Shown: positions 12,440 through 27,568 of the stretch, piece by piece | Layout: each line of letters begins with the position of its first letter | How positions within the stretch are numbered: position 1 is the first letter of the stretch | DNA from: a candidate division WOR-3 bacterium | GTDB lineage: Bacteria; SDB-A | Direction: 5' to 3' | NCBI GenBank assembly: GCA_016926475.1 | Contig: JAFGON010000096.1 | Span: 1-45,641, forward strand | DNA length: 45,641 nt | Position numbers and translations under genes: made by a program | Notes under the pieces: generated by a model | The model's input: only the letters and a program-made list of their open reading frames with translations | Database searches by the model: none | Told to the model about the DNA's origin: nothing

Positions 12440-14227
12440 ATGAGACAAATTATCTGTATTGTAATTTTAGTATCCCAACCCCTTTTTTCTCAGGAAGTTC
12501 CCCGTGACGAATACGATCATCCTCCTGAAGATTATTACAAAAAATTTATCCCTTTAGCTCTCAGCGTCCTGAGAACCTCCGAAAGCGACGTAGGTTTTGA
12601 ATTCTCCAACCCTCCTGCCCTTTTTGCAGAATCTCTTAAAACAGTCCTCAGAAAACCGCTTTCAGGAAGCGATAAAATGAAAGAAATCATGGAGAACATC
12701 GAAAATCTCGATATCCGAAGGGTTTATCCTATTTTTTGTTCTCTTTCCCTGTTTTTCAAATCTTCTATGACGGTTGCTGACTATACAAATCCGGAATTAT
12801 TTTTGGGAGAATGCCAAATGGTTTTATCAGAAACTTTCGGTGAACACCAAGACACCCTGTTATCTCTTGCCGGCTCACTGCTCAAAGACGACGCGGCTCT
12901 TCTCAACCTCGACCCGTATGAAGAATACGCTCTTTCACTCGAATACAGATCATTCGTGACTTCTTTCACGCTTTTCGCTTGCCAAATAGACCTCTCGGGC
13001 CATGCGGCGGTCTTCAACGCTCTGCTCGAACACTCGGATTTCGGTCTTTTTGACGGGGATGCAAGTCCCTGTCCTTATTCAGAAGGCGAAATTGTGAAAT
13101 GGAAAGACACACCACAAGGTCCAATAATAATCGGAGGATTGGGTTCAAACGTCTACAGGTTCAAAACAGGGATAATAATAGACATGGGCGGAGACGACGT
13201 ATATTACATCGGTGAAAATTTTTATTCCGTAACCATGATAATAGACGCCGAAGGAGACGACAAATATTTCGGAACAGACGATTTCTCAATAGCCGGAACT
13301 TTTGGCGGTGTTTCAGTTCTTATAGACAGCTCCGGCGACGACTTGTACCGGGGAGGCTACGCATCTGTAGCCTCCTCAATTTTCGGAATATCCCTTCTTG
13401 AAGACATTGAAGGAGACGACACATATTTGGGAAAAGTTGGTACCTGCGGTTCTTCAGCATGCGGAGTAGCGTCTCTGATAGACAGGTCAGGAGAAGACAG
13501 GTTTATTTCATACGCATACTCCCAGGGTTGCTCGGGGGTTTCCGGAGTCGGAATTTTCGCTGACATTGAAGGAAATGATTCCTACATCTGCAAGGGAGCG
13601 TATTTGGACGATTTAAGGTTCAGCCAGAGATACCTCTCTTTCGGTCAGGGTTTTTCAATAGGCCTCAGGCCGGATCTGCCCGGAGGGTTTGGATTGCTCC
13701 TCGACGGCGGCGGCAACGACTCCTACGACGCCGACGTCTTCTCGCAAGCTTGTTCCTACTGGTACGGTTTCGGAGGAATTTACGACAAGTCAGGAAACGA
13801 CAGCTATTTAGCTTCCCAATACTCACAGGGATCAGGAGTTCACCTCGCGCTTGGTATACTTTTGGACAGTGACGGAGACGACACATACATAAGCAAATCT
13901 GTCTCTCAGGGCTGCGGACACGACTTTTCGACAGGAATACTCGTCGATGAAGGCGGCGACGATTTTTACAGCGCCGAAGGTCTTTGTCAAGGTGCCGGAA
14001 ACGCCAATTCATGGAGCATTTTCGTTGAATCCGCCGGAGACGACCTCTACTCCGTCAAAATCTCTGAAAATTCCCGTGGATGGTCCGACACTCGACGCGG
14101 CTACAGGGGGACGGGTTTGTTTCTCGACATACGAGGTGACGATTCCTACCTTGGAATAGGCGATGATTCACTTGTGTTTTTAAGACCTGATCTCGGTTTA
14201 TTCGCTGATATCGAGGACGGGTTTTGA
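12440..14227 (+). CDS. Exported protein with twelve GDDxY repeats
   Basis: 595 aa from ATG 12440. Residues 1-~18 form a signal peptide ('IICIVILVSQPLFSQ'). Residues ~20-245 are a mostly helical unique region. Residues ~248-572 contain twelve copies of a motif of the form [SEGD]G[DN]Dx[YF], spaced roughly 25-40 residues apart and separated by 'SQGxxxxxGxxxLxD'-like segments ('LLDSDGDDTYISKSVSQG', 'ILVDEGGDDFYSAEG'). The periodicity and Gly/Asp turns suggest a beta-solenoid, perhaps binding calcium as RTX repeats do, although the RTX nonapeptide GGxGxDxUx is not followed. I do not recognise a named family. It is followed by a TTGA overlap with the HEAT-repeat gene, so the two are probably made together and act in the envelope. 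Confidence 0.82.
   Translation: MRQIICIVILVSQPLFSQEVPRDEYDHPPEDYYKKFIPLALSVLRTSESDVGFEFSNPPALFAESLKTVLRKPLSGSDKMKEIMENIENLDIRRVYPIFCSLSLFFKSSMTVADYTNPELFLGECQMVLSETFGEHQDTLLSLAGSLLKDDAALLNLDPYEEYALSLEYRSFVTSFTLFACQIDLSGHAAVFNALLEHSDFGLFDGDASPCPYSEGEIVKWKDTPQGPIIIGGLGSNVYRFKTGIIIDMGGDDVYYIGENFYSVTMIIDAEGDDKYFGTDDFSIAGTFGGVSVLIDSSGDDLYRGGYASVASSIFGISLLEDIEGDDTYLGKVGTCGSSACGVASLIDRSGEDRFISYAYSQGCSGVSGVGIFADIEGNDSYICKGAYLDDLRFSQRYLSFGQGFSIGLRPDLPGGFGLLLDGGGNDSYDADVFSQACSYWYGFGGIYDKSGNDSYLASQYSQGSGVHLALGILLDSDGDDTYISKSVSQGCGHDFSTGILVDEGGDDFYSAEGLCQGAGNANSWSIFVESAGDDLYSVKISENSRGWSDTRRGYRGTGLFLDIRGDDSYLGIGDDSLVFLRPDLGLFADIEDGF
13187..14149 (+). repeat. Coding repeat region: twelve GDDxY motifs
   Basis: Protein-level tandem repeats in the gene at 12440-14227. 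The first copy (G250-Y255) is GGDDVY and the last (R565-Y570) is RGDDSY. Copies differ at the DNA level, so this is an old repeat under protein-level selection and not a recent tandem duplication. Confidence 0.85.
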
Positions 14228-20408: not shown

Positions 20409-21343
20409 CTGTAATCTTCCAGTATCAGTTTCAATTCTTCTTCAATTTTCTTTTCAGCTCTGAATCCCGTCAATTGTTCAATTTTTTCCGAGGAGCCCAG
20501 TTGAAAATTGGGATCCGAAGCCCTGAAAAAGGATTCGTCCTGCTCGATTTGGGCTTTGACCCCCGCCTTTTCCACCATCATGAGTAATATCTGACGCAGG
20601 TCTAAATCTGATTTCCCGGCAAGGTTGTAGATTTCTCCGCTCTCGGCTTTGTCAATCAATCGGATATAGAACGTAAGGGCGTCTTCCGCGGTGATGTATG
20701 TGCGTTTTGGTTTTAAATTGCCTGTCTTAATGACCGGCTTTCTGGAACCTTTTTTAATTTCCATTATCTGCTTGGCAACAGAAGGTATAAAAAACCTGCT
20801 GTTTTGCCCCCTTCCAATTTGAGGGAAAGGCCTTATCACGCAGCATTCAACCCCGTATGTCCTAAAGTATTGCAAAACCGCTTCTTCAGCCGCTGCTTTA
20901 CTTGCGCCGTAAGGGCTCAAAGGCTTTTTGGGGTCCTCTTCTTTAGCTTTTTCATTTCCGGTGTCACCGTAGACCTCCGACGAAGATATAAAAAAGAATT
21001 TCACCCCGTTATCCCTGGCAGCTTCCAGAAAATTGACTGTCCCCATGAAGTTGACCTTAAAAGTCTCAACTGGATTCTTGAATGAGTAACCCGCGCTCGA
21101 CTGCGCGGCAAAATGGTATATCAAATCCGGCTTCACAAAATCTACAAGAGTTTTGACGCTTTCAAAATCGGTGATGTCGCATTTTTGGAATTGAACCCCT
21201 TCAACTCCTTCAATCAAATCGCTGTATGTCGTCCCGAACACTTTGTATTTTTTATCAACCGCCAATTTTTTTGCCACGAGCCCACCGACAAAACCATCAG
21301 CACCAGTAATTAGCAATTTTAAATGATTTGAATTATAAATCAT
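20405..21343 (-). CDS. NAD-dependent epimerase/dehydratase (GDP-mannose 4,6-dehydratase/reductase-like SDR)
   Basis: 312 aa, ATG 21343, overlapping korB by 11 bases. Extended short-chain dehydrogenase: 'LLITGADGFVGGLVAKKL' (nucleotide binding), 'DLIYHFAAQSSAG', 'FFISSSEVYG' and the catalytic 'YGASKAAAEE' (YxxxK). The 'SSAGYSF...NP' and 'FPQIGRGQN' patterns fit the GDP-mannose 4,6-dehydratase / GDP-6-deoxy-mannose reductase branch, giving a deoxysugar nucleotide for the GT4 and GT2 enzymes next to it. UDP-glucose epimerase is an alternative. Confidence 0.9.
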   Translation of the reverse strand: MIYNSNHLKLLITGADGFVGGLVAKKLAVDKKYKVFGTTYSDLIEGVEGVQFQKCDITDFESVKTLVDFVKPDLIYHFAAQSSAGYSFKNPVETFKVNFMGTVNFLEAARDNGVKFFFISSSEVYGDTGNEKAKEEDPKKPLSPYGASKAAAEEAVLQYFRTYGVECCVIRPFPQIGRGQNSRFFIPSVAKQIMEIKKGSRKPVIKTGNLKPKRTYITAEDALTFYIRLIDKAESGEIYNLAGKSDLDLRQILLMMVEKAGVKAQIEQDESFFRASDPNFQLGSSEKIEQLTGFRAEKKIEEELKLILEDYR

Positions 21344-22199
21344 AAAGTTTTGCTTTGCAATAATCTTTCAATATGCTGTTTTTTGATTTATTTGGTTCAA
21401 TAATTAGCTTTTTATATTTATCTGAATACTCTTCGGAGGGTATGTTCTTGAATATCCCCATAGGAATTTTTTCCTTTTTTGCCTCTTCGTCGAGCGCATC
21501 GTATGCTTTTATTGGGACCATCCTCTTTCTAAGCCAGTCCATCATGCTGTAAGGGGTTTTGAGCTTGTTTCGTTTTCCGTATTGTACATGGCAAAAACTT
21601 AAAATTTCTACGACCGAAAACCCCTCGTAGTTCAGCGCCTGATATATTATGTCGTCCAGGCCAGGGACATGAACAGCCGAACTTCTGGCGACAAAACCTG
21701 CTCCGGCGCCAATCGCCAGAGCTGCAATGTCGAAATTATTGTCTATGTTTCCGTAGGGTGTAGTAGAAGCTATCGCTTTTCCAGGCGTCGTAGGAGAGAA
21801 TTGTCCTCCTGTCATGCCGTATATGTAGTTGTTGAAGATCAGGGCGGTTATGTTGAGGTTTCTTCTCGACGCGTGTATAAAGTGATTTCCCCCAATGGCT
21901 ACAGCGTCTCCATCTCCCATGACAGATATGACGTTCATCTTTGGATTTGAAAACTTTATGCCGCACGCAAAAGCCAAAGATCTGCCATGGGTTGTGTGAA
22001 GAGTGTTGAAATCAACATAACCGGGTGTCCTGCTGGAGCAACCTATGCCGGAAACCAGCGTTATGTCGTCTTTATTCCATCCGGTTTTGTGTATTGCCCT
22101 TAAAAGAGAGCCCAAAATTATACCGTGGCCGCATCCTGGACACCATATATGAGGGAGTTTGTCTTTCCTCAAATATGAGAGGACAATTTCTGTCGTCAT
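21333..22199 (-). CDS. korB: 2-oxoacid (2-oxoglutarate) : ferredoxin oxidoreductase, beta subunit
   Basis: 288 aa from ATG 22199, which has AAGGAG upstream and an ATGA overlap with the ferredoxin subunit. It carries the thiamine-diphosphate fold: 'HIWCPGCGHG' (CxxC), 'GIGCSS', 'TTHGRSLAFACGIK', and the TPP/Mg motif 'GDGDAVAIGGNHFIHASRRN...NN'. With the alpha, gamma and delta subunits it forms an enzyme that oxidatively decarboxylates 2-oxoglutarate (or a related 2-oxoacid) to the acyl-CoA, reducing ferredoxin, or runs in reverse to fix CO2. Assignment to 2-oxoglutarate rests on the KorABCD layout and alpha-subunit length. Confidence 0.92.
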   Translation of the reverse strand: MTTEIVLSYLRKDKLPHIWCPGCGHGIILGSLLRAIHKTGWNKDDITLVSGIGCSSRTPGYVDFNTLHTTHGRSLAFACGIKFSNPKMNVISVMGDGDAVAIGGNHFIHASRRNLNITALIFNNYIYGMTGGQFSPTTPGKAIASTTPYGNIDNNFDIAALAIGAGAGFVARSSAVHVPGLDDIIYQALNYEGFSVVEILSFCHVQYGKRNKLKTPYSMMDWLRKRMVPIKAYDALDEEAKKEKIPMGIFKNIPSEEYSDKYKKLIIEPNKSKNSILKDYCKAKLYDL

Positions 22200-22411
22200 G
22201 CTTCTTCTCCTTTTATTTCCGTTACAGTGACAGCGAAATCCGGACAGACATATTCGCACCTCAAGCATCCTATGCAGTCATCAGGTCTCGCTCCGAAAGC
22301 TTTTTGTCTTGAATTGAGTTCAAGGACTTTTTTTGGGCAGGCAAGAACGCAATTTTCGCATCCCTTGCAAAGTTTTTCATCAACCGTGACAATAAATTTT
22401 TTTCCCTGCAA
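22196..22411 (-). CDS. korD: 2[4Fe-4S] ferredoxin-like delta subunit of the 2-oxoacid oxidoreductase
   Basis: 71 aa from TTG 22411, chosen because AGGAGG lies six bases upstream and it starts after the stop of the double nucleotidyltransferase; a frame back to 22429 is less likely. It has two Cx2Cx2Cx3C clusters: 'CKGCENCVLACPKK' and 'CIGCLRCEYVCPDF'. It would carry electrons from the TPP subunit to ferredoxin. It sits directly upstream of korB with an ATGA overlap. Confidence 0.9.
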   Translation of the reverse strand: MQGKKFIVTVDEKLCKGCENCVLACPKKVLELNSRQKAFGARPDDCIGCLRCEYVCPDFAVTVTEIKGEEA

Positions 22412-22421
22412 ACTCGACCTC

Positions 22422-25385
22422 CTAAACAAATACGGATTGAACCAATTTAGCGATATTATTTTTTGATTTCACCATTATATCTCTGTAGAACTCGTCAAAA
22501 TCAGACCAAGATTTCCCATGGTAGGGTATGATCGAAGCTTTAAAATTCCTGAAAATCTCAGCGACATCAACAATATTCGTCTTGGCTACCGTCAAACGCA
22601 TGCACTGCCTTATCTCTCTGAGCTGTTTTAGGTGCATAAAGGCGAGGTCTAATTCGCCGGCGTAACCAGGGATTTTTTGGCGTAAATCTTCGAGAAGCTC
22701 GTCGCCGAACTTAAATGTCACACGATGTTTGGCTTTTAAAACGAGCACAACCATTTCTATGTCCTTTATTCCCCCGGGGCTTTCTTTGACGTTGTATATA
22801 AAATTGGAATTGTCAGCGTGACGATTCCGAATCTCTTCTATCATATTACGGGCAAAAATTTCCCAGTTTGAAAAAATCTGGTTTTCTATGAATTCATTCT
22901 TGAATTTTTGGAGAAAACTTTCGGATCCAACCAGAAATTTGGATTCCAGAATCTGGGATTTCTCGATGAAATTTTCCGATGAATCATCCGCGAAAAGATT
23001 TTTTAAATCGTTCAGTTTGGTAACGTATGTGCCGAAATGGTCGGCTAACCTGAACTGCGGAAGCGTTCCAGTCCTCACAATTTCCCGGCTCATTTTTGAA
23101 AGTATCTTGTTGTAGGTTGAGAATGTCTTCAAATCTTCCGAGCCAAATACTGCGACCAAATCTATATCGTCGTTGAAAGAACTGCCCCGAGCCATGCTAC
23201 CTGCGACCAGCAGCATGAATTTGTCGTCGTCTCGAAGTCGGATCGATTTTTGTTCTTCCATCTCGAGTGAACAAATATCGAAAAGCGTCGTCAGGTAGTC
23301 GTCGTTTAAATCCATAAAACTTCCGGAGATTTCGTCGAAAGGTTTGCCCAGAATACCTTCAAGTCCAATGTTTAAAAATTTCAAAATATAAAATCTCGTC
23401 AAAAGTGATTTCTGTAGCTGTCTGTTTACAGTTCTGAAAATATCGGCGAAAATTCCCGAGCAGATGTCCTCGATTTTTTCTTCTGATTCAATAAGCTTTA
23501 CTATCCATGGATCGGATAGAATTATTCTCTGGAAATATTTCCGAAAATACCTGCTGCCCTCGGAATACACGGTTAGGATGTTTTTAAAATTCTCATTTTT
23601 AGATTTTTTAAGTTTCCTCTCGGAAAAGTCTTCCTTTAGTTCTGAAAATGATTTTTGGATTTTCCTTAAGCTTTCTCTGTCTATGTTTTCAAGAAGTCTG
23701 CAAAAACCGATGTTGTCCTTTTCGAAAAATCCTACGAGTGAAAATAGAAGGTCCGGGTTTCTGTCCAAACATTCCATGAGAAAGCCCAAAAATTCTTCCG
23801 CAACTCTGTGGAACTCTTCATCATCGGGCAATTTTTCCAGCATGATGATAAAAGAGACGAGTCCGTCAAAAGTATATTCTACATGGGAGAAAAGGCCCTT
23901 AAGAATAACCTTTCTCAACCTCTCGTTCAACGCCAGGTAATCCTTTGTGAATACTTTTAGAAGTTTATAATCATCCGAGGCAAAAGATTCGAGTATGTCG
24001 TCCCAGAAATCCGAGCTTTTATAAATGCCGGAGTTTTTGGCGAAATTCACGGCGAGGTTGCCTCTGTTCTCGGAGAGGATTTCGTTGACCAACGTTATTC
24101 TCTTCAGGTATTCACGACAGTCTTCGAGCATAAGCTGGACTATTTTTTTTACCCTTCTCAAGTGGTCGTAGTATCTTATGAGGATATGCTCCTGTTTAGA
24201 AACCGCTCCTATTGAACCTATTCCCATCGCCGTGGACACCTGGTTTATCGTCCTTATGTTTTCCGGTAGGTCGAGGTATATCTGCTCTTCCTGTGTCCCG
24301 TAGAGCATAAAAAGAAACCGAAAAGTCTCAATAAAAGCAAGGCTTTCTCCAATTGCTTTGTATATGTCCCAGTTCTTCGAATCCAGATATTTCAGTTTGT
24401 CGAGAACCGCCCATGGATTTTTTTTGAAAACTCCGTATCTTGTCTTTTGAATGGATAACAGGGCTTTTATCATTCTCAGGGCGTCGTTTTTCGGATTGAT
24501 ATATTGAGATTCTATCGGTCTGTTTAAATAAAGCCTTATCTCTCCGAGTATCATTCTCAGATAAGCTTCGTGAAATCTGATGTCGGACGTGTAATCCTGG
24601 TAAAACAGCCTCTGGACAGCGTTTTCAAAACTATCCATTATTTCTTTGGGTCCGTAAATCTTCTTCGCGCCAATGATCTCGGTGATAAAAACGAAATTGG
24701 AAATATTCTCAATCGCGAAATCGGCGAATTCATCAACTGTAGCGCTGTATTTGTTGTTGTTTATGCTCTCGGCAAGATGAAAGTGCATTGGGGTTCCGTA
24801 TTTAGTCAGGATTTTGTTTATTCGGCTCAACAGCTTGTCCAAATCTCTCGTTTCCTCTTCAACAGTAATCACCGCTACATCTATGTCGTCCAAATCTGTT
24901 CGGGTTCCTACGCTCGCTATGATGAATTGGGGGGTATTCAAACCTCTTGAGAGTATGGGCACGAGGTTTTCCAGAAATATCGATGTCAAAGACCTGAATT
25001 TCCATCCTATTTCCCTCATGAAGTTCATGTAAACTTTTAGAGGGTCTGATTTGATGACTTCAGGCTTCATGTAATCAATCATCGTGACGTTGAGTTCCAC
25101 AAGTTTCATGGAATAATAGGTGCCAAGGTATTTTAGTTTGTCCTCATACTCGACATCCAGACCTGATAACAGCGACATCTCCCTGGACAACTGCTTGTCG
25201 AAATCGGGAAGGCTGTGCGAAAAATGAATTTTGTCTGAAAGGTTGTTTTTGTTGAGTACTTCAACGAGCGAATCATAATAGCTCTCGATGAAATAGGCGT
25301 ATTTCCGCATGTGGTTTCCCCATTCGGAAATTTCAATTAAATTCCTCTGAAGAGGAGTGAGTAACTTGTGCTCGGTGCTTTTCAA
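22422..25385 (-). CDS. Double nucleotidyltransferase protein, GlnE/GlnD-like, inside the kor operon
   Basis: 987 aa. It starts at TTG 25385, overlapping the korC stop as TTGA, and stops 10 bases before korD. Two DNA-polymerase-beta-type nucleotidyltransferase cores are visible. The N-terminal one has 'SVGTRTDLDDIDVAV' (D167-x-D169, without the usual GS). The C-terminal one has 'VAGSMARGSSFNDDIDLVAV' (G729-S730, D740-x-D742), which is complete. About 125 residues later comes 'KESPGGIKDIEMVV' (867-880), matching the GG-I/L-R-D-I motif after the catalytic core in GlnE and GlnD. The rest is helical. This resembles GlnE, the two-headed glutamine-synthetase adenylyltransferase, in order and length, but 'GlnE' itself is not claimed: no glnA or PII gene is nearby. 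Its site suggests that the 2-oxoacid oxidoreductase or a partner is the target (inference). Confidence 0.85.
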   Translation of the reverse strand: MKSTEHKLLTPLQRNLIEISEWGNHMRKYAYFIESYYDSLVEVLNKNNLSDKIHFSHSLPDFDKQLSREMSLLSGLDVEYEDKLKYLGTYYSMKLVELNVTMIDYMKPEVIKSDPLKVYMNFMREIGWKFRSLTSIFLENLVPILSRGLNTPQFIIASVGTRTDLDDIDVAVITVEEETRDLDKLLSRINKILTKYGTPMHFHLAESINNNKYSATVDEFADFAIENISNFVFITEIIGAKKIYGPKEIMDSFENAVQRLFYQDYTSDIRFHEAYLRMILGEIRLYLNRPIESQYINPKNDALRMIKALLSIQKTRYGVFKKNPWAVLDKLKYLDSKNWDIYKAIGESLAFIETFRFLFMLYGTQEEQIYLDLPENIRTINQVSTAMGIGSIGAVSKQEHILIRYYDHLRRVKKIVQLMLEDCREYLKRITLVNEILSENRGNLAVNFAKNSGIYKSSDFWDDILESFASDDYKLLKVFTKDYLALNERLRKVILKGLFSHVEYTFDGLVSFIIMLEKLPDDEEFHRVAEEFLGFLMECLDRNPDLLFSLVGFFEKDNIGFCRLLENIDRESLRKIQKSFSELKEDFSERKLKKSKNENFKNILTVYSEGSRYFRKYFQRIILSDPWIVKLIESEEKIEDICSGIFADIFRTVNRQLQKSLLTRFYILKFLNIGLEGILGKPFDEISGSFMDLNDDYLTTLFDICSLEMEEQKSIRLRDDDKFMLLVAGSMARGSSFNDDIDLVAVFGSEDLKTFSTYNKILSKMSREIVRTGTLPQFRLADHFGTYVTKLNDLKNLFADDSSENFIEKSQILESKFLVGSESFLQKFKNEFIENQIFSNWEIFARNMIEEIRNRHADNSNFIYNVKESPGGIKDIEMVVLVLKAKHRVTFKFGDELLEDLRQKIPGYAGELDLAFMHLKQLREIRQCMRLTVAKTNIVDVAEIFRNFKASIIPYHGKSWSDFDEFYRDIMVKSKNNIAKLVQSVFV

Positions 25386-25936
25386 AGTCCCTGTATTTGT
25401 TTGCCTTTTTCGTAACCTATTTCAAACGCCTGCAAATTCAGGTCTTCTGTGCCTTTTGGAACCCTTGACTTTATGGCTTCTTTCACGGAATCTACCGTTA
25501 GAATATTCGATATGTTTATGACAAGCCCAAGGGCTATCATGTTTGCGACAATGGGTTTTTTGAGTTCGTTGATAGCAATGTCGGTGATATCGGATGAAAA
25601 AAACCTCACGCCTTCGATTTCTCTCGGAGAATGGACGAGTTCTTTGTCGTATAAAACTACGCCGCCTTTTTTTGTCATATCCGAATACTTGTCAAAAGCT
25701 TCTTGTGTCATCGCTAAAAGAAAATCAACTTGTCCCGCTTTAGGGTAATCTATGTCTTCGTCGGAAATTATCACTTCGCTTCTGCTCGCTCCGCCCCTTG
25801 ATTCGGGGCCGTATGATTGACTTTGTGTCGCGTTGAGGTCGGAAAATATAGCGGCCGCCTCGGCCAATATTTTGCCTATCAAGATAAGGCCCTGCCCTCC
25901 TGCTCCGCTTAAACGTATTTCGTATCTAAAAGACAT
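25382..25936 (-). CDS. korC: 2-oxoacid:ferredoxin oxidoreductase, gamma subunit
   Basis: 184 aa, ATG with AGGGGA upstream. It has the gamma-family start 'EIRLSGAGGQGLILIGKILAEAA', followed by 'SQSYGPESRGGASRSEVI', 'FLLAMTQEAFDKY' and 'VANMIALGLV'. The gamma subunit helps to close the CoA-binding side of the enzyme. It lies 13 bases after korA and its stop overlaps the start of the double nucleotidyltransferase, so the latter is translated together with the enzyme subunits. Confidence 0.93.
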   Translation of the reverse strand: MSFRYEIRLSGAGGQGLILIGKILAEAAAIFSDLNATQSQSYGPESRGGASRSEVIISDEDIDYPKAGQVDFLLAMTQEAFDKYSDMTKKGGVVLYDKELVHSPREIEGVRFFSSDITDIAINELKKPIVANMIALGLVINISNILTVDSVKEAIKSRVPKGTEDLNLQAFEIGYEKGKQIQGL

Positions 25937-25949
25937 TTCAAGTCCCCTT

Positions 25950-27074
25950 TTAAAATTTTTTAAGAACTTTCAATATATCCTCAGGATGCATGGATTCGCC
26001 GTCGTATCTGTTCGCTCCCAAAACTTTTACCCTTCCGGAGACGGCATTTTCGACTTCGTGAAGCGCCTGCCCCATGTTCATTTCCGCTACGATTATTCCC
26101 TTTAGGTTTTCAGTCAGAGCGAAAATTTCTTTGTCGGGAAAAGGCCAAAGGGTCAGCGCTTTCATCAATCCGACCTTAAATCCCTGTTCTCTCGCCATTT
26201 TCAAAGCTTTTCTCGAACACCTCGCCGAACTGCCGAAAGAAAATATCAAGTATTCCGCGTCTTTAACGTCTATAAGTTCCGTCATGACTGTTGAGTTTCT
26301 GGCCAGGTCGAATTTTTTACGCCATCTGTCTTTCAGGGCTTTGATCTTTTCGTTGTCGTTTGTCGGAAAACCCGTCTCATCGTGCATGAGTCCGGTGACG
26401 TGGTGCCTGTACCCGCTTCCGAAATCAGCCATTGGAGGAACGCCGTCCTCGGTGTCCTCGTATGGCCTGAAATTCTCATGCTTGACGGAAGGCCTCTTTC
26501 TTTCAACCACTTCAATCTGCCCAGGTTCGGGAAGGACCATTTTTTCGGTCATATGTCCCACTATTTCGTCCATTAAAAGAATCACAGGCGACCTGTATTT
26601 TTCTGAGAGGTTGAAAGCTTTCACTGTCAGGTCAAACGTCTCTTGGACGCTCGAAGGGGAAAGGACTATTATAAAATGGTCTCCATGGGTTCCCCATCTG
26701 CTCTGCATCAGATCTTCCTGAGACGGCATCGTAGGGCTTCCGGTCGAAGGTCCTCCGCGCTGAACGTTGACAATGACGCATGGAATTTCGGCGTTACAAG
26801 CGTATCCTATGTTTTCCTGCTTTAGGCTGAAACCAGGTCCTGAAGTCGCGGTTAAAGACTTCACCCCGTTGAGACTCGCGCCAATCACAGCGGCTATAGA
26901 GGCTATTTCATCCTCCATCTGTATGAATTTACCCCCGAGTTGAGGCAGCAAAACCGCCATTTCCTCAGCTATTTCGCTCGAGGGCGTGATTGGATATCCG
27001 GCAAAAAACCTGCAGCCGGCTATAATAGCGCCGTAGGCGCAGGCTTCGTTGCCGTGCATCATTTTTTTTATCAT
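25950..27074 (-). CDS. korA: 2-oxoacid (2-oxoglutarate) : ferredoxin oxidoreductase, alpha subunit
   Basis: 374 aa from ATG 27074 (AGGAGG four bases upstream; a TTG three bases earlier is too close). Family motifs: 'GNEACAYGAIIAG', 'FFAGYPITPSSEIAEEMA', 'QMEDEIASIAAVIGAS', 'TATSGPGFSLKQENIGYA', 'RGGPSTGSPT' and a C-terminal Rossmann-like domain ('FSFGSSARCSRKALKMA'). The length and 'GYPITPSSE' fit KorA-type 2-oxoglutarate synthase. The start overlaps the upstream gamma-carbonic-anhydrase-like gene by one base (TGATG), giving a CO2-related gene pair. Confidence 0.94.
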   Translation of the reverse strand: MIKKMMHGNEACAYGAIIAGCRFFAGYPITPSSEIAEEMAVLLPQLGGKFIQMEDEIASIAAVIGASLNGVKSLTATSGPGFSLKQENIGYACNAEIPCVIVNVQRGGPSTGSPTMPSQEDLMQSRWGTHGDHFIIVLSPSSVQETFDLTVKAFNLSEKYRSPVILLMDEIVGHMTEKMVLPEPGQIEVVERKRPSVKHENFRPYEDTEDGVPPMADFGSGYRHHVTGLMHDETGFPTNDNEKIKALKDRWRKKFDLARNSTVMTELIDVKDAEYLIFSFGSSARCSRKALKMAREQGFKVGLMKALTLWPFPDKEIFALTENLKGIIVAEMNMGQALHEVENAVSGRVKVLGANRYDGESMHPEDILKVLKKF

Positions 27075-27568
27075 CAATCCTCCTGTCTTTTCAGACTTAT
27101 TTCAACCAAACTTTTTTTAGCCAATTTTACGTACTCAACAGCAGATTCGGTTATTTTTTGTACCTCTTTGTCGGTGAGTTGCCTCTTAATCTTTGCCGGA
27201 ATTCCCGCCACAAGGCTGTTTTTAGGAATTTCCTGATTTTCAAGGACCACAGAACCCGCGGCTACTATTGAATTGTCGTTTATTTTTGCGCCGTCGAGTA
27301 TTATGGCGCCCATACCGATCAATATATTGTCTCCAATTACGCATCCGTGGATTATTGCACCATGCCCGACCGTTACATTTTTCCCGACAACAACAGGCAA
27401 TTCATGGGTTACATGCACAAGACAGCCGTCTTGAATATTAGTGTTCTCGCCTATTTGGATATAGTTGATGTCCCCTCTCAGGACCGCGCACGGCCATACA
27501 TTGGCGTTTTCGCCAAGCCTGACATCTCCTTCGAGGACGGATTTGTCACTCAAGTATTTTTTTTGCAA
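27074..27568 (-). CDS. Gamma-carbonic-anhydrase-family left-handed beta-helix protein
   Basis: 164 aa from TTG 27568 with GAGG five bases upstream. Hexapeptide repeats of the left-handed beta-helix are evident ('VLEGDVRLGENANVWPCAVLRGD', 'VVVGKNVTVGHGAIIHG', 'ILIGMGAIILDGA', 'SIVAAGSVV'). The three zinc-binding His of the family appear to be present in 'CLVHVTH', 'VGHG' and 'IIHGC'. The YrdA/PaaY/CaiE branch contains both active carbonic anhydrases and thioesterase-like members. Location directly before korA fits supply or removal of CO2/bicarbonate for that enzyme, which is inference. Confidence 0.9.
   Translation of the reverse strand: MQKKYLSDKSVLEGDVRLGENANVWPCAVLRGDINYIQIGENTNIQDGCLVHVTHELPVVVGKNVTVGHGAIIHGCVIGDNILIGMGAIILDGAKINDNSIVAAGSVVLENQEIPKNSLVAGIPAKIKRQLTDKEVQKITESAVEYVKLAKKSLVEISLKRQED

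Follow-up and report, generated by a model that had tools for sequence, protein, structure and literature searches.

The window analyzed here, the whole stretch of 45,641 nucleotides, carries within a 2-oxoacid:ferredoxin oxidoreductase (Kor) operon a gene for a GlnE-fold double nucleotidyltransferase (NT) that, judging from sequence comparisons, is probably a covalent on/off switch of the adjoining Kor in many uncultured bacteria. On present evidence, NT works like GlnE yet is no member of GlnE or GlnD. The fold and the kor linkage are well supported, and our observations comprise the fold, a duplication, intact acidic motifs, the operon, synteny across phyla, and a signature on the gamma subunit KorC. 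A fuller reading, which we regard as evenly poised between right and wrong, is that the GlnE/GlnD enzymes have a third branch, not described before, to which NT belongs and which would reversibly attach AMP or UMP to the co-transcribed Kor, with KorC the likeliest contact and target. The original prediction was supported in part: a double nucleotidyltransferase related to GlnE/GlnD is indeed built into a kor operon.

Contig C96 of G000, a candidate-division WOR-3 draft genome of 2.15 Mb that is 100% complete, makes up the window. The open reading frame predicted for NT was confirmed and lies on the minus strand, within the following operon.

21333..22202, minus strand: korB, TPP-binding beta subunit (PF02775; nearest PDB chain 8ys5_C, E 2.4e-81)
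22196..22411, minus strand: korD, ferredoxin subunit with two 4Fe-4S clusters (Fer4 models; best NCBIfam match OorD)
22422..25385, minus strand: NT, GlnE-fold double nucleotidyltransferase of 987 aa with a TTG start, also labelled P0001
25382..25936, minus strand: korC, gamma subunit, POR domain (PF01558, E 7e-37); its stop overlaps the NT start
25950..27077, minus strand: korA, alpha subunit (PF01855/PF17147; NF006412, 563 bits against a cut-off of 411)
27074..27568, minus strand: gamma-carbonic-anhydrase-like gene overlapping korA (below the cut-off of NCBIfam gamma carbonic anhydrase, E 8e-46; synteny)

The operon reads gamma-carbonic-anhydrase-like gene, korA, korC, NT, korD, korB, and Pfam and NCBIfam models confirmed the identities of KorA, KorC, KorD, and KorB. 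The TTG start of NT and the TGA stop of korC share bases as TTGA, and the TTG start of korD, at 22411 and preceded by AGGAGG, stands 10 bases past the NT stop; the placement between korC and korD, the overlap, and the spacing were all as predicted. The gamma-carbonic-anhydrase-like gene overlapping korA is kept in all same-family genomes (L018, L019, L020); Kor itself consumes or releases CO2. Elsewhere in the window, positions 12440-14227 on the plus strand encode a secreted-looking protein with repeated GDDxY-type motifs.

The Kor of the window has all of its alpha, beta, gamma, and delta subunits. The nearest PDB chains of KorA and KorB include 8ys5, a 2-oxoglutarate:ferredoxin oxidoreductase, and the nearest models and chains overall are 2-oxoglutarate or generic 2-oxoacid enzymes, with KorB scoring 336 bits against a cut-off of 364. 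2-Oxoglutarate is the probable substrate of this Kor.

All of the residues named in the original prediction (D167/D169, G729-S730, D740/D742, and PGGIKDIE at 870-877) were found in place, and they fall into two modules.

24054..25385, minus strand: N-terminal nucleotidyltransferase module, residues 1-444 (AF2 pLDDT 89, pTM 0.88; Foldseek; homologous to the C-half)
24879..24914, minus strand: N-core motif V-G-T-R-x-D-x-D-D-I-D (G160...D167, D169), strictly or almost invariant in an alignment of 30 N-halves
22425..23468, minus strand: C-terminal nucleotidyltransferase module, about residues 640-987 (hhalign to the N-half and to true GlnE)
23160..23201, minus strand: C-core motif G729-S...D740-x-D742, with G729, D740, and D742 invariant in 20 homologues
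22755..22778, minus strand: PGGIKDIE motif, start of PF08335 (GlnD_UR_UTase)

The sole Pfam match in NT is to PF08335, over residues 845-897 (E 2e-10), and this domain was matched by all 20 of 20 NT homologues. The full-length AlphaFold model (pLDDT 85.6) gave as its best PDB match 1v4a, the AR domain of GlnE (E 7.4e-9, target TM 0.70), followed by 3k7d, the GlnE AT domain, and DrrA, with none else below E 0.001. The N-half alone (AF2, Foldseek) matched 3k7d best (E 2.4e-6) and DrrA at E 4.4e-5. Taken together, the models had confident PDB matches only to the AR and AT domains of E. coli GlnE and to DrrA. Both solved GlnE domains were also retrieved from the PDB with a profile built from 20 NT homologues; a single-sequence PDB search gave chance kinase matches only, and a viral structure library yielded zero matches. 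An anti-phage role for NT was considered and rejected, the only indication being that a candidate model of PADLOC weakly matched the C-core (E 0.007). Aligned to one another by hhalign, the N-half and C-half matched over 320 columns (E 1.3e-32), D167/D169 falling on D740/D742, and the C-terminal module aligned to true GlnE at E 1.2e-14; by these alignments, an internal duplication gave rise to the two halves, each of them a nucleotidyltransferase module. Between them, at about residues 445-640, lies an all-helical linker. We recognized no signal-sensing domain in NT, and this helical middle is the only candidate for a sensor.

The N-terminal core had been described as the less active-looking one, and this was not supported: it is no less conserved than the other core and its acidic residues are invariant, although its loop is 4 residues shorter than the canonical and C-core loops. 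In the first 10 homologues V159, G160, D164, D167, and D169 of the N-core are invariant, and family-wide a GT stands in place of GS. The shortened loop and the replacement of the canonical GS by GT or GG would suit a pseudoenzyme that has the GlnE fold and binds Kor non-covalently, as a scaffold or to sense nucleotides, but the invariance of all DxD aspartates in both halves, even among distant homologues, points to retained catalysis. We consider the pseudoenzyme reading very unlikely. Full-length homologues of NT, 21 to 70% identical, occur in many genomes, and the DxD aspartates of both cores are invariant down to 21% identity. The NT open reading frame is therefore real, far beyond chance, and because these aspartates are kept in both cores, the two modules look putatively catalytically competent.

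The nearest sequence models of NT are those of GlnD and GlnE, and a glutamine synthetase was found in every NT genome examined, so NT might be a divergent GlnE or GlnD acting on glutamine synthetase or PII, with its kor linkage either incidental or joining carbon and nitrogen status. This alternative is largely refuted, and we consider it extremely unlikely. PF03710, the GlnE nucleotidyltransferase domain, had no match in NT at E<=1 and none anywhere in G000, and it was found in 3 of the 20 NT genomes tested as a true GlnE beside NT, not as NT; since the two coexist in those three genomes, NT is not the GlnE orthologue. Likewise, the stretch of NT that contains PGGIKDIE (803-897) scores best against GlnD models, but NT reaches 38 bits on the GlnD NCBIfam equivalog, whose cut-off is 519, and Pfam found neither an HD nor an ACT domain in NT. 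A P-II protein (PF00543) was absent from G000-G003, G056, G060, G101, G330, and others by a search that was positive in 13 of 14 control genomes. The single glutamine synthetase of G000 has Phe at the adenylylation position (KNLFELPPREQ), as does that of G001 (KNLFELPP), whereas that of G094, a genome with a real GlnE and PII, has Tyr (KNIYDLSP); the adenylylated residue of the E. coli enzyme is Tyr397. Orthology to GlnE or GlnD was rejected on these grounds together. For G000, the absence of GlnE and PII and the Phe at the glutamine synthetase site remove the nitrogen-regulation reading, and with it the link to PII or nitrogen status that had been proposed. The prediction had named orthology to a glutamine-synthetase adenylyltransferase as evidence against itself, and NT showed no such orthology.

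Among relatives, and across the phyla of G000, G060, G330, and G101, our searches turned up NT in 42 genomes. In 32 of these, spread over 10 family-level lineages and at least four phyla, korC lies just upstream of NT on the same strand, a count that includes two genomes (G004 and G104) in which one extra gene separates them. The gene order is korA-korC-NT-korD-korB in the family of the window and korA-korB-korC-NT in other lineages. Within the phylum of G330, korC stands upstream at all NT loci that have their upstream flank within the contig, one locus being cut by a contig end; the NT locus of G200 is also cut off upstream. Synteny across lineages rules out a chance neighborhood limited to one genome, and homologues lying mostly away from kor, which would have spoken against the original prediction, were not what we found. 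The extra gene of G004 and G104 (L022:11481-12233 and L052:3834-4670; 251 and 279 aa) is related between the two genomes, has no Pfam or NCBIfam match, and by eye resembles a minimal nucleotidyltransferase. Downstream of korABC(-NT), several lineages repeatedly have ndk, which encodes a nucleoside diphosphate kinase (L021:10375-10827, L022:8070-8495, L174, L181).

Six genomes have NT away from kor (G047, G079, G221, G094, G361, and G106), and in G047 sdhA is nearby. The divergent homologues of G079 and G221 (L026, L057) lie between fabG and a conserved gene of 103 to 107 aa and are probably a subfamily with another partner. Those of G094 and G361 (L027, L058) lie beside an OB-fold/HD-domain (YhaM-like) gene, and both of these genomes have true GlnE and PII. 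In the NT tree, the fabG-, HD-, and G106-type proteins form long branches outside the core, and they may have other partners. In G274, about 2 kb separate NT from core-type kor genes on the opposite strand, and the NT homologue itself (L053:7329-10634, 1102 aa) is a natural fusion with a C-terminal HdrC-type double 4Fe-4S domain, which supports a link between NT and low-potential electron carriers. In G322, NT belongs to an Hdr cluster, and a Kor paralogue is nearby.

The subunit evidence centers on KorC. Three of its residues, Lys22, Thr37, and Arg52, track with NT.

25781..25873, minus strand: KorC signature stretch K22...T37...R52

All three residues were present in each of the 31 kor-linked genomes examined (36 rows, five genomes contributing two each) and likewise in the two genomes of the core family, G322 and G047, whose NT is on another contig or at another locus. 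They were found together in none of 27 NT-less genomes and in none of eight paralogous Kors inside NT genomes, and they are missing from four genomes with divergent NT types. The Kor cluster adjoining NT in G322 is itself a paralogue without the signature, the signature-bearing Kor of that genome lying on another contig; such in-trans cases and in-genome paralogues are the best controls for the signature. In PDB 3on3, a KorC homologue, the three positions hold V, V, and K. Weighing against the Kor reading, the six NTs away from kor and the divergent types without the signature indicate that some members of the wider family probably have other partners.

KorC is the least conserved subunit without NT and the most conserved with it. 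Mean identities were 0.50 for KorA, 0.47 for KorB, and 0.37 for KorC among unlinked pairs and 0.61, 0.60, and 0.64, respectively, among linked pairs; at a KorB identity of 50 to 55%, KorC identity was 0.59 in linked versus 0.38 in unlinked pairs. In the KorA+KorB tree, the NT-core Kors fall into two groups on a poorly resolved backbone, so the signature counts could reflect few independent events; a single origin of all these Kors is possible from the tree. The KorB type linked to NT was present in none of four NT-less genomes in the phylum of G101, and the sister genomes G597 and G598 lack both NT and that KorB. The KorB profile (A3) was built from linked KorBs, and its scores for those genomes, being circular, were kept out of the evidence.

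Conserved synteny and the KorC signature make Kor the most likely target of NT, and KorC the best candidate within it, in agreement with one of the targets first proposed. An enzyme of the same class might instead act on another target, such as the KorD ferredoxin, Hdr subunits, or a signalling protein, the kor linkage then being one of shared regulation only. Several NTs occur with HdrA/B/C or near sdhA and not beside korC, one carries a fused ferredoxin domain of HdrC-like type, and ferredoxin is common to Kor and Hdr. However, the constant neighbor is korC and not korD or hdr, and the signature that tracks with NT sits on KorC even where NT is in trans; we judge another target to be rather unlikely. 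It is distinctly unlikely that NT is a maturation or assembly factor of one Kor subtype, making a single nucleotidyl transfer as do CitX/MdcG with a nucleotide-containing prosthetic group. Obligate-looking co-inheritance with one subtype and invariant KorC residues fit such a fixed modification equally, but close Kor relatives without NT exist (G321, G044, G189), and two homologous modules per chain are the architecture of GlnE, an enzyme that both adds and removes.

Under reversible nucleotidylation of Kor, NT would be co-transcribed with KorABCD and would attach AMP or UMP to the enzyme through the gamma "wing" domain of KorC, one module writing and the other erasing, and the flux between succinyl-CoA, CO2, and 2-oxoglutarate would be tuned by NT to some signal. 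We looked in KorA, KorB, and KorC for a tyrosine that is both conserved and NT-specific and found none. A guess at the acceptor is Thr37, which offers a hydroxyl and belongs to the signature; Thr at this position occurs in unrelated Kor subtypes too. In the Sulfolobus enzyme StOFOR, domain III, the equivalent of KorC, forms a wing by which, in a model, the ferredoxin is held (PMC5020499), and a bulky nucleotide there could thus gate electron transfer or CoA access. Catalysis, the nucleotide, the target subunit, the division into writing and erasing, and the signal are what we infer. The most specific version, a new type of covalent control over central carbon metabolism, falls a little short of an even chance: that a dedicated, kor-encoded NT reversibly AMPylates or UMPylates KorC, with T37 as candidate site and K22 and R52 at the interface, and so sets the ferredoxin-dependent step between 2-oxoglutarate and succinyl-CoA in several uncultured phyla, with neither PII nor GlnE.

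Covalent metabolic control has its textbook example in the nucleotidylations carried out by GlnE and GlnD, which are known for nitrogen enzymes only. A literature search of partial coverage found no nucleotidyltransferase linked to Kor. If the proposal is true, a third branch acting on a low-potential oxidoreductase at a carbon/nitrogen branch point would extend nucleotidylation control to the carbon and ferredoxin metabolism of anaerobes and would suggest a way for PII-less cells, which lack the usual sensor, to control 2-oxoglutarate. The KorC signature offers a testable site, and the interest would be high if the target of NT were confirmed.

Among the closest known systems is GlnE, which also has about 950 to 1000 aa and two homologous nucleotidyltransferase modules flanking a helical region, and whose two domains are the best PDB fold matches of NT. 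Unlike GlnE, NT lacks PF03710, shares about 13 to 14% identity with it, is linked to kor and not to glnA, and occurs in genomes without the targets of GlnE and alongside true GlnE in others. GlnD (PF08335, TIGR01693) shares the PF08335 region, whereas NT has two nucleotidyltransferase modules without HD or ACT, and G000 has no PII. DrrA (SidM), the Legionella AMPylator of Rab1 and the third-best PDB match, has a GlnE-like adenylyltransferase fold but is a single-module secreted effector with a host target. The operon of the window has all four subunits of KorABCD/OOR 2-oxoglutarate:ferredoxin oxidoreductases and differs from them in having NT inserted between korC and korD and a KorC with K22/T37/R52; in other lineages NT follows the korC of a korABC set.
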